DNA of 45,766 nucleotides. Origin: Gracilinema caldarium. Its GTDB lineage: Bacteria > Spirochaetota > Spirochaetia > Treponematales > Breznakiellaceae. Positions 686 through 4,379 of the stretch are shown piece by piece (position 1 is the stretch's first letter; every line of letters begins with the position of its first letter). A program made the translations under genes and the position numbers. The stretch lies in contig NZ_JAJUHW010000022.1 of the NCBI RefSeq assembly GCF_029265695.1, forward strand, positions 1 through 45,766, given 5' to 3'. Under the pieces are notes generated by a model, which did no database searches, was not told where the DNA came from, and saw only the letters and a list, made by a program, of their open reading frames with translations.

Positions 686-714
686 TTGACAAGCCAAGTC
701 CATTGGCATATACC
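686..714 (+). promoter_or_regulatory. Promoter for the mgtA leader transcript
   Basis: TTGACA (686-691), 17-base spacer, TATACC (709-714). Start of transcription is expected near 721, giving a leader of about 277 bases before mgtA that contains the 52-codon ORF. The match and spacing are near ideal for the main sigma factor. Confidence 0.75.
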
Positions 715-748
715 TGTACCGATTAAACCAGCATAAGGAGGGATGGAT

Positions 749-907
749 ATGAATGACTCGGATGGCAGTCATAGATGCACACCGATTGTACATGATCTGA
801 ATCCAGACAATTCCGAAGATCCATTGCCGCGACGGTGCGCTCCGATGGCTGGTCATGAATTAAAGAGACATAAGCAGCTTTTGCGCCATTCTGCTGGCAA
901 ATTCTGA
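749..907 (+). CDS. 52-codon leader ORF upstream of mgtA (MgtL-like candidate)
   Basis: A short ORF with a strong SD (AAGGAGGG, 735-742) six bases before its ATG, lying in the 5' leader of the mgtA transcript, 90 bases before the mgtA start. The peptide has an acidic N-terminal half, then 'SEDPLPRRCAP', then a basic tail rich in Lys/Arg/His. Enteric mgtA and mgtCBR transcripts carry short proline-rich leader peptides, and the enteric MgtL peptide as I recall it contains a very similar acidic-Pro-Leu-Pro-Arg-Arg stretch; translation difficulty at such acidic/proline codons in low Mg2+ switches on the transporter. That this ORF works in the same way is inference from position and motif. It could instead encode an unrelated small protein. 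Confidence 0.55.
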   Translation: MNDSDGSHRCTPIVHDLNPDNSEDPLPRRCAPMAGHELKRHKQLLRHSAGKF

Positions 908-997
908 ATCTAAAACGGGTGGGCCAACCGGATTCCCAAAGACTCCTGTCCCTTTTTCACCTCCCGGCCATCACGAACGCCGCATAAGAGGTGGAAA

Positions 998-3597
998 ATG
1001 GCAAAACAAGCACCAACAGAAAATTCGCGTTTCATCAAACTGTGCACTGGCTCGGCCGCAGAATGCTTTGCCGAGCTCGATGCTCTTCCAACAGGCTTAT
1101 CAGAAAAGGAAGCGGAAAAACGGCTCGCCGAATTTGGCAAAAACGAAATCGCTTCAGGCAAGAAAAAGAACTTTTGGGCGGACATGCTGGAACGGTTTTC
1201 GAGTCCCTTGGTTGTTCAGCTCCTCGTTATCGCTCTTGTTTCTGCAATTATTGGTGAAAGCCTTTCATCAATTATTGTAGGGGTTATGATTCTCTTGAGC
1301 GTAGGGCTTTCCTATATACTGGACCAGCGGTCAAACCAGGAAGTGGAAGCCCTGGGGAAACGGGTACAGTCCCGTACTTATGTGCTGCGGGACGGAGCAG
1401 AGACGGAAATAAAAATGTCCGAAGTAGTCCCCGGCGACATTGTCCTTTTACAGGCTGGCGCCATCGTTCCTGCGGATGTACGGATTATCTCTTGCAAAGA
1501 CTTTTTTGTCAGTGAGTCGGCCCTCACCAGGGAATCCATGCCGGTAGAAAAGTCTGCCGCTGTACCCGCGGGAAAGAATATGACCACCCTGGAGCTTCCC
1601 AACGCTTGCTTTATGGGATCCAGTGTCACGAGCGGCACCGCCAAAGCCCTGGTCATCCATACGGGGACAAAAACAGTCTTTGGAAGTCTTTCCCAAAAGT
1701 TGGGAGAAAAACGGGAAGAAACCAGTTTTGATAAGGGCATCCGTTCTTTTACCTGGCTTATGATCCGTTCATGCTCGTGCTTGTCAGCGTGGTATTTGCC
1801 ATTGTAGGCCTTACTAAGGGGAACTGGCTTGAGGCCCTGCTCTTTTCGCTTTCCGTGGCAGTGGGGCTCACTCCGGAAATGCTTCCCATGATGGTTACGG
1901 TGAACCTCGCCAAGGGTGCCCTGGCCATGGCAAAGAAAAAGGTCATTGTAAAAAAGCTCCCAGCCATACAGAATCTGGGGGCCATCAATATCCTTTGTAC
2001 AGATAAAACCGGGACCCTGACCCAGGACCGGGTGTTTCTGGAACACCATGTAGATATCATTGGCAATACCAGCGAAGAGGTCCTTAACTACGCATATCTT
2101 AATAGCTATTTTCAGACGGGATTAAAGAACCTCTTGGACCGGGCGGTTCTAGAGCATGTGGATCTAAATGTTGATGAATGTCGTTTGGTGGATGAGCTCC
2201 CTTTCGATTTCCAGCGGCGCCGTATGTCGGTGATTGTTGAGTACGAAGGAGACAACGTGCTTATCTGCAAGGGGGCCGTGGAAGAAATCTACAGCTGCTG
2301 CACCCATTATCAGATAGATGAAGAAATCTACCCCCTCATCGATATGATCCGGGCCGACCTTTTTGAAGAGGTAGAAAAACTAAACCGTGAAGGCTTCCGC
2401 GTCCTTGGTCTTGCCTACCGGGAATTCACTACGGAGAAAAAGGTCTTTACCACCGCCGACGAAAGCAAATTAATTTTACTTGGTTACATAGCGTTTATGG
2501 ATCCGCCCAAGGAATCGGCCAGGGAAGCGGTCGAGCTCCTTACCAGAGCTGGTGTCCAGGTAAAGGTTCTGACTGGAGATAATGGCCTCGTAACCGGAAA
2601 AGTGTGTGCCGATGTGGGCATAGTATTTGACCGGATTGTAAGCGGCCCCGAACTGGCCCGGATGGACGAAGGTCAGTTCTCCCGGAGCGTTGCGGAGCAT
2701 CAGGTCTTTGTAAAACTGACCCCTGCACAAAAAGAACAGATAGTAAAGGAACTGCGCCGCCAGGGCAATGTGGTCGGCTTTATGGGAGACGGCATTAACG
2801 ACGCGACGGCCCTGAAAGCTGCCGATGTGGGTATCTCTGTAGATTCCGCGGTGGATGTGGCCAAAGAAGCGGCGGATATCGTGCTCCTAGAAAAGAGCCT
2901 GCTTGTATTGGAAGAAGGAATTATTGAAGGCCGGAAAATTTTTGCCAATATCATTAAATACATACGGATGGGCGCAAGTTCCAACTTTGGCAACATGTTC
3001 AGCGTACTCGGTGCAAGCTACCTGCTGTGGTTCCTGCCTATGCAGCCCTTGCAGATATTGACCAACAACCTGTTGTACGATTTTTCCCAAACCGGCATTC
3101 CCTTAGACCGGGTAGATACCGAACAGGTGGCAAAACCGGTCTCCTGGAACATCGGGAACATTAAACGATTTATGATGTTCATCGGGCCTATCTCCTCTCT
3201 CTTTGATTATGCCACCTTCGCTCTCATGTGGTTCTTTTTCAGGACCAGAGAGTTTTTAAATCCCGCCCTTTCTGCGGGTCAACAGGATCAGCTTGCTAAA
3301 CTATTCCAGACGGGCTGGTTTGTAGAATCTCTTTTAACCCAGACGTTAATAGTACATATCATCCGAACCCGGAAAATTCCCTTTATTCAGAGCCGGGCCT
3401 CAGCCCCTATGCTGTTTACCACCCTGCTTGTTATGGCTATCGGCGCCTGGCTCCCATATTCGCCTTTGGCCCCGCTGCTCGGTTTTGTTCCGCTTCCTCC
3501 GGTGTATTTTGTCTGGATTGGACTCTTCCTTGTAAGCTACAGCATTTTGACCCATAAGGTAAAAAGCTGGTTTATCCGCAGATTTGAAGGAGTATAA
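998..3597 (+). pseudogene. mgtA: Mg2+-importing P-type ATPase, frameshifted
   Basis: Two ORFs (998-1807 and 1771-3597) together give a normal MgtA-length P3B-type ATPase of about 866 residues, which imports Mg2+ across the inner membrane. Part one has the N-terminal cytosolic region, the first transmembrane pair and the actuator domain ('PGDIV', 'PADVR'). Part two has the phosphorylation motif 'DKTGTLT', the nucleotide-domain 'KGA', 'TGDN', 'GDGIND' and the C-terminal helices with 'LLYDFSQ'. The frame changes at about 1766-1770: one base is missing where the family reads 'IRFMLV'. In the actuator domain the TGES motif reads Thr-Arg-Glu-Ser (codon 178, AGG). Either the gene is decaying or the base loss is a sequencing error; the Arg change is independent of the frame. 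The start has an SD (AAGAGGTGG). Confidence 0.85.
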
Positions 3598-3599
3598 CC

Positions 3600-4379
3600 A
3601 TGGATACCCTGCTCGATGCCCTCCAGGAGGGGCGGCTTTTTGAATTGCCGGAAAACGACAAGAATCATGCGCTGCAGTTTCTTGCCCATATTATAGAAGC
3701 ATTTCCCCAAATACCCACTGGCACCGATATTGTGGGAAACGTTATGGCCCGGGAAGAGGCCATGAACACCGCTCTTGGTAAAGGCTGGGCCTGCCCCCAT
3801 GCAAGGCTGGAATTCGAAGAAGACCTTATGTGTGTTATTGGCTGGAGCCCCACCGGTATCGATTACGGCGCCCCCGATGGCAAGCCTATTTCGCTCATTA
3901 CCATGTACCTGGTGCCTTCTAACCAGCGGAACCACTATCTGCGGGAAGTGTCCCTCCTTGCGAAGGTTATCAGTTCTTCTCCCGGAATAGATAAACTCGC
4001 TTCTCTTAAAGAACTGAACGATGTCCGTAACTATCTACTGGACCTCATTGCGGCCAGCAAGGAAACGACAGGGCCTGATGCACGGGCAAGGATGATACGG
4101 CTCCAGGCTAAGACGGCGGCGGTGCCCCAGCCTGTGCAGGATCTCTCTCATTTGGTAGTGGAAGCCCTTTCTATTGTTACAGGACCCGGTCTTAAGCCTC
4201 TGGTGTTAACACAGAACCAGGAATTGCTTTCCTATGCCGAAAGTATTGCCGCATTACCCGAACGGCTCGAAACAGATGGCTTTTACCAGAATGGCCGCTG
4301 GCGTATTGTGCGCCGCAACACCGCAGTGTATCAGGGTAACCGGATGGTCTATGATTGCCTGGCCATATCAACGAAATAG
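3600..4379 (+). CDS. PTS EIIA-type (PtsN/Fru-like) domain protein coupled to mgtA
   Basis: A 259-residue cytosolic protein whose first ~150 residues match the PTS EIIA type 2 fold (fructose/mannitol/PtsN family). 'ALGKGWACPHARL' holds the phosphoacceptor His at residue 67, and 'YLREVSLLAKVI' is the usual C-terminal helix. The last ~100 residues ('LKPLVLTQNQELL', 'NGRWRIVRRNTAVYQGNRMVYDCLA') are not a family I recognise. The ATG lies two bases after the mgtA stop, with GGAG in the mgtA tail, so it is translationally linked to the Mg2+ ATPase. PtsN-type EIIA proteins are known to bind and regulate ion-transport components such as TrkA and KdpD in E. coli; a regulatory role on MgtA is inferred from the coupling. 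No EIIB/EIIC lies nearby, which argues against sugar transport. Confidence 0.75.
   Translation: MDTLLDALQEGRLFELPENDKNHALQFLAHIIEAFPQIPTGTDIVGNVMAREEAMNTALGKGWACPHARLEFEEDLMCVIGWSPTGIDYGAPDGKPISLITMYLVPSNQRNHYLREVSLLAKVISSSPGIDKLASLKELNDVRNYLLDLIAASKETTGPDARARMIRLQAKTAAVPQPVQDLSHLVVEALSIVTGPGLKPLVLTQNQELLSYAESIAALPERLETDGFYQNGRWRIVRRNTAVYQGNRMVYDCLAISTK

Follow-up and report, generated by a model that had tools for sequence, protein, structure and literature searches.

Leader-ORF control of Mg2+ import has been found described from enteric bacteria, where it governs mgtA, mgtCB and corA. Searches of freely available papers gave no such leaders outside enterics and no leader ORFs before mgtE. 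MgtL (E. coli b4702) is a 17-codon ORF with a Shine-Dalgarno (SD) sequence in the 5' leader of mgtA. Its acidic and proline codons lie at codons 2-9, with an N-terminal EPDP and prolines at positions 3, 5, 7 and 9, and it acts on transcription. Acidic residues that are adjacent or one apart, and proline, lead within the first 30 codons to pausing or drop-off of the ribosome, which Mg2+ counteracts in the case of MgtL (PMC11282234, PMC11552253). MgtQ is an 8-codon ORF inside the Salmonella operon, between mgtC and mgtB. It has a strong SD and early Asp/Glu codons that destabilise ribosomes, and the upstream ORF is combined with an SD-occluding stem (PMC8092293). CorL, in the leader of enteric corA, is likewise an upstream ORF with alternative RNA structures; however, it serves another transporter, works by Rho termination, starts with UUG and has a single proline (PMC11552253). 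Finally, the mgtE motif of Thioalkalivibrio (SRC-65-1), whose SD lies within a stem (PMC11109978), and the M-box are cis elements before Mg2+ transporters. Unlike the leader considered here, they are described as riboswitches (or candidates), not as leader ORFs, and come from other taxa.

The window, that is, the whole 45,766-nt stretch of Gracilinema caldarium DNA analysed here, belongs to a genome of 3.04 Mb. The nearest complete relative is Spirochaeta (Treponema) caldaria H1T (G001; 3,239,340 bases). The mgtA gene of the window, encoding a P-type Mg2+ ATPase (TIGR01524), occupies 998-3597; it and the promoter and leader features before it are on the plus strand. The gene is preceded by a promoter with the -35 element TTGACA (686-691), a 17-nt spacer and the -10 element TATACC (709-714), and the same layout is seen again ahead of most mgtA leaders in the window's order. 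The sequence-only reading had called this promoter a consensus one. Its coordinates, its spacer and its -35 element (6/6) hold, but the -10 element scores 4/6, so the word is generous; a stricter promoter scan of the window does not list 686-714. The SD AAGGAGG (735-741), which is kept in relatives, lies 7 nt before the ATG at 749 of a 52-codon ORF (749-907, stop TGA at 905-907) encoding MNDSDGSHRCTPIVHDLNPDNSEDPLPRRCAPMAGHELKRHKQLLRHSAGKF. At its longest the frame opens at 743; we took 749 as the start, since this ATG is the one that relatives share and the SD stands at a more favourable distance from it. From the stop to the mgtA start at 998 there are 90 nt. Thus, the 52-codon ORF with a strong SD, 90 bases before mgtA, was placed correctly from the start. 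The presence of the ORF in many relatives excludes a chance ORF. This conserved leader ORF ahead of mgtA is very probably translated.

Two parts of the peptide stand out. Codons 3-7 (755-769), close to the N-terminus, read D-S-D-G-S, in which a single residue separates the two acidic ones; they form the best-conserved core. Codons 23-27 (815-829) read EDPLP, a putative site of ribosome destabilisation or pausing that can be likened to the EPDP of MgtL (PMC11282234). The leader had been described as MgtL-like. What stands of this is a short SD-bearing ORF with acidic and proline codons in the mgtA leader and a local string, SEDPLPRR at codons 22-29 in the window and EPDDPFPRR in a relative (L036). 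Also the expected logic, in which complete translation would turn the transporter off and drop-off would turn it on, may be common to both. However, the motif lies at codons 23-27 in the window and at 17-27 over the leader set, the leaders have 23-52 codons, and MgtL has no MNDSDGS. Codons 3 and 5 of the window leader are Asp, with no proline there. Alignment with E. coli MgtL gives the short motif alone and no homology along the peptide, and the exact PLPRR stretch is confined to this genus, the relatives having DPFPR. As neither the N-terminal EPDP with alternating prolines nor homology is found, we do not class the leader as MgtL. Its RNA anatomy points instead to Salmonella mgtQ-mgtB as the closest relative in design: a stem over the transporter ribosome-binding site (3:4), which is predicted in the window, and a competing stem (2:3), for which the window has a candidate weaker than its SD hairpin. 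A strong SD and early acidic codons, here D3 and D5, are common to both as well. MgtQ differs by its 8 codons and its place inside an operon, the window leader being promoter-proximal, and there is no sequence relation. Loss of MgtQ translation lowers the transporter (PMC8092293), unlike in the switch proposed below.

As a check, the sequence-only reading had asked whether mgtA leaders of related spirochaetes share an ORF with acidic and proline codons and alternative hairpins. Such an ORF is indeed conserved, and such hairpins are predicted. The mgtA leader of S. caldaria reads MNDSDGSHRCVHLVHDVNTDNSEDPLPRRFTPMAGYETERQPIDRVF, that of Treponema sp. M74 MNDSDGSHRCTPIVHDLNPDNSEDPLPRRFALMAGYELKRQCN (the contig stops short of mgtA) and that of Rectinema subterraneum MNDSDGSHSCCICTEPEDPFPRPSDLTAGNEKAEGSH; about ten more members of the Rectinema family carry the leader too. 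The N-terminus MNDSDGSH is common to the relatives. In the alignment M1 is invariant, D3, D5 and S7 are almost so, and the consensus is MNDSDGSHSC...EDPxPR. The acidic-Pro motif varies among EDPFP, DDPFP, DDPGP and ENPYP; it is missing in two leaders (G888, L132) and has merely a weak likeness in a third (G060). The tail past about codon 40 is variable.

The ORF is selected as a peptide. The reading frame from the ATG to the EDP motif is preserved despite an 18-nt difference in distance between families, and within the motif codons the third positions are the most variable ones. In one genome the shared MNDSDG is encoded by AAT GAC TCG GAT GGC in the mgtA leader and by AAC GAT TCC GAC GGC in the mgtE leader, with synonymous differences at 4 of the 5 codons, which makes the peptide the object of selection. 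These data bear on the idea of a riboswitch-like sensor made of RNA only, with an incidental ORF. The leader is well conserved as nucleotides too (e.g., GACTCGGATGGCAGTCAT), as such a sensor would be. However, the preserved frame and the synonymous differences between paralogous leaders speak against it, and the Rfam covariance models, M-box included, give no match to the window leader. We give this idea hardly any weight.

Selection on the peptide might also mean that the leader product acts in trans, as a small protein partner of the transporter like MgtR or MgtS, and that the position of the ORF is incidental. Conservation of DSDGS as amino acids across phyla and the presence of two copies in one genome would fit. 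Nevertheless, we hold a trans-acting role highly improbable: the C-terminal third is unconserved, lengths range widely, no hydrophobic segment is apparent, the matches lie in cis immediately before the transporter, and the RNA pairing regions described below overlap the ORF.

Linkage to Mg2+ importers is evident from pattern searches, in which many of the surveyed genomes are metagenome assemblies. The GTDB species collection, scanned with an SD followed by M-x-D-S-x-G-S, gave 25 matches. Nine are spirochaete leaders, eight of them directly before mgtA and one at a contig end; one deltaproteobacterial leader lies before mgtA (L132), and that of Desulfococcus sp. 4484_241 lies before mgtE (L129; MNDSDGSHSCQKVTGTSIQTDPDDPGPRLSGHAARG...). 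The remaining matches (Streptomyces, Hymenobacter, Paenibacillus, Verrucomicrobia and others) are without a Mg2+ transporter and were set aside, being the beginnings of long genes or frames of another kind. A looser pattern was run on 394 genomes of the window's order together with a reversed-pattern control. All 20 matches belong to Mg2+ transporter leaders: mgtA accounts for 14 (one truncated by a contig end) and mgtE for six. The reversed pattern has none in these genomes. The six mgtE leaders read MDDPDGST..., with MgtE identified by Pfam. The phylum to which the Desulfococcus leader belongs was covered with 297 genomes; four of nine matches are leaders (three mgtA, one mgtE), and five were rejected. 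A Spirochaetota-wide pattern gave eight matches, two of them rejected; the window's genome and S. caldaria have two each, one before mgtA and one before mgtE. When the search is reversed and starts from mgtE, a clear leader, judged by eye, is found just upstream in about 13 of 25 genes. In the window's own genome and genus the mgtE leader reads MNDSDGPGSSQPPEPHLC...; other versions read MSDSDGGGSC..., MSDSDSGGS... and DTDSDPYGSK..., and a Pro-rich QPPEP occurs in mgtE leaders. A search of plasmids for the leader gave no matches. Hence, by sequence, the same kind of leader stands ahead of two unrelated importers, mgtA and mgtE, in spirochaetes and some deltaproteobacteria, and the mgtE leaders set this family apart from MgtL. 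The sequence-only reading had held that such a leader in a spirochaete would be new, by transfer or convergence. It does lie outside the enterics, but it is no lone oddity, given the mgtE leader of the same genome and the occurrence before both transporters in two phyla.

Behind the leader, the window is predicted to form a hairpin of 11 pairs (z=-3.2). The anti-SD arm TTTTTCACCTC (953-963), the first part of region 3, pairs with region 4, GAGGTGGAAAA (988-998), which holds the mgtA SD and the edge of the start codon as the 3' arm. The anti-SD arm is kept in leader-bearing relatives. A hairpin covering the SD is predicted in all 17 leaders folded beside a start codon, and 17 of 20 leaders have the hairpin directly on a start codon. 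Over the aligned sequences the outer stem is 91% paired, a value reached by none of 500 shuffles, and the covariation score is matched by 1 of 500 shuffles; with the letters of the stem fixed by the SD, covariation counts stay modest. Hairpins over the SD of mgtE are likewise predicted, and one mgtA leader (G060) and the Desulfococcus mgtE leader retain the SD hairpin with different letters.

The hairpin bears on the kind of output. The same leader-ORF sensor could act on transcription, as enteric mgtL and corL do, by terminating it within the leader, either intrinsically or through Rho; the SD hairpin would then be a by-product. MgtL and CorL work in this way (PMC6460261, PMC11552253), and in S. 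caldaria the stretch from the leader to mgtA contains a strong GC hairpin with CTTTTT behind it. Moreover, in three deltaproteobacterial leaders (L132, L170, L171) a conserved CACCTC/GAGGTG hairpin sits well upstream of the mgtA start, off its SD. Nonetheless, the stretch between leader and mgtA has no conserved terminator; what relatives share is the anti-SD:SD hairpin on the start codon, with its predicted counterparts over the mgtE SD. A transcriptional output is therefore unlikely in our view. Of the MgtL-type control model of the sequence-only reading, the alternative hairpins are borne out by prediction; the anatomy suggests an SD that is covered and uncovered, unlike the transcription attenuation of mgtL. 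In the same three leaders no obvious start codon follows the CACCTC/GAGGTG hairpin; in another one (L169) this hairpin lies over the SD of an ORF placed in between, which overlaps the mgtA start.

A switch needs a competitor for the anti-SD side, and region 2, GATGGCTGG at leader codons 32-35 (844-852), is the predicted one. It can pair with the second part of region 3, CCGGCCATC (964-972), which otherwise pairs within the hairpin (CGGC 965-968 with GCCG 979-982). This 2:3 complementarity recurs at the corresponding place in most lineages. In Rectinema CCTGACAGC is predicted to pair with GCTGTCAGG, in G076 GCCGGCTGCCATA with TGTGGCGCCGGC, in G927 GGCGGCCGG with CTGGTCGTC, and before the Desulfococcus mgtE CACGCGG with CCGCGTG. 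In total, 11 leaders have 2:3 helices of differing sequence at corresponding codons, with registers chosen by eye from duplex predictions. In mgtE leaders the pairing found by eye is CGGAAGC with GCTTCCG (S. caldaria) and CGGGAG with CTCCCG (G018). Region 2 lies at codons 31-36, or at codons 25-29 in Rectinema and its kin, whose leaders have six codons fewer before the acidic-Pro motif. Of the 17 leaders with EDPxP or a comparable motif, 15 have region 2 starting 6-14 nt after it; in G473 and G060 region 2 is off the expected place. A ribosome held at the acidic-Pro motif would have its front edge, judged by footprint size, about where region 2 begins.

The duplexes are stronger than those with dinucleotide-shuffled ORFs (Fisher p 6e-8, for related sequences). 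When partners are swapped, the own partner is in the top two of 15 for 8-9 of 15 leaders. With region 2 covered, the predicted accessibility of the SD drops in 12 of 20 leaders, and Rectinema flips fully. In the window, the lowest-energy fold retains the SD hairpin whether region 2 is free or covered, so that the switch would there have to depend on a kinetic choice made during transcription.

We suggest, at a probability of roughly 0.64, that the leader is a cis-acting switch which makes expression of the Mg2+ importer depend on how well ribosomes progress along a short, acidic leader with proline codons. When Mg2+ is plentiful, the ribosome would read the leader to its end and sit on region 2 as the downstream RNA emerges. 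With region 2 occupied, the anti-SD arm of region 3 would fold onto the mgtA SD in region 4, and mgtA would be off. In low Mg2+, the ribosome would drop off or halt at the early D-S-D, at E-D-P-L-P or at both, presumably destabilised by the acidic residues. Region 2, left free, would then pair with region 3, the mgtA SD would stay open, and mgtA would be translated. Timing matters in this scheme, as a ribosome parked at the leader stop codon would already be past region 2. We infer both the direction of the switch and its translational output.

Mg2+ would be the signal of the proposed switch. A leader-ORF attenuator of the same kind might instead sense general translation stress, such as polyamines, EF-P and proline, or charged tRNA. 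For mgtL a response to proline codons and EF-P exists too (PMC6460261), and the QPPEP of the mgtE leaders would suit such a sensor. On the other hand, the genes downstream encode two unrelated kinds of Mg2+ importer and have no part in amino-acid or polyamine supply, and we regard a general stress signal as very improbable. A further, speculative variant is that the nascent D-x-D-G-S peptide has a Mg2+ sensitivity of its own in the ribosome, and that both importers are controlled by this sensitivity and not by a general destabilisation through acidic residues. The leaders would then be a separately evolved sensor family of Spirochaetota and Desulfobacterota, a module shuffled across phyla and across the two importer genes. 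The D-x-D-G-S core is reminiscent of divalent-ion-binding DxDG loops, but we consider this variant quite improbable.

If the proposed switch is real, bacteria would have arrived more than once at the same general solution, gauging cellular Mg2+ by the stability of the ribosome on an acidic nascent chain. The leader family described here, in which no homology to the enteric leaders could be detected, marks mgtA and mgtE across a spirochaete order and extends to the deltaproteobacteria. About 40 natural leaders are thus available for testing which residues make ribosomes sensitive to Mg2+, and the cultured, free-living S. caldaria H1T has two of them in one genome.

In a tree built from the N-terminal parts of MgtA, the MNDSDGS-type leader tracks one clade of 17 rows (support 100/99) with spirochaetes and deltaproteobacteria; one member, G399, belongs to this clade yet has no leader. 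Upstream regions of the sister clade have no recognisable leader. Leaders outside the main clade are those of G060, of an MDDDGGS group that belongs to distant lineages of MgtA, and of mgtE. Hence, the module seems to have been transferred among genes and among phyla.

Other leader types were noted along the way. A second type with a DTDSDPYGSK core precedes mgtA in L115, where the unit is doubled in tandem, and mgtE in L178, L182, L183 and L189; it has the nucleotide core GGYAGT in common with the DSDGS type. Three further candidates (L111, L112, L042) were left uncounted, as their DPYGSK frame overlaps the apparent mgtA start (CCCTATGGCAGTAAA is readable in two frames). In the AT-rich, Brachyspira-like genomes of f30/g128 (L050, L051, L052, L053, L057), mgtA is preceded at a distance of several hundred nt by another, strictly conserved 25-codon ORF, MLNKNFYSRSLLSFKRIVYLICHFN, whose SD is strong. 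It is perhaps another case of leader-ORF control.

Compared with S. caldaria, mgtA of the window lacks one base near 1777 in this assembly, and the deletion splits it into the frames 998-1807 and 1771-3597, which overlap at 1771-1807. Either the assembly is wrong here or the gene is truly damaged. Immediately upstream of the leader-mgtA unit lies a RidA-family gene (TIGR00004, 296-682). In E. coli ridA adjoins mgtA as well, and this shared neighbourhood is probably a coincidence. Two nucleotides after mgtA begins a gene (3600-4379) for a PTS EIIA type 2 domain with an extra C-terminal part, possibly a regulatory partner of the pump. Other spirochaete families (L049, L055) seem to have a similar sequence next to mgtA.
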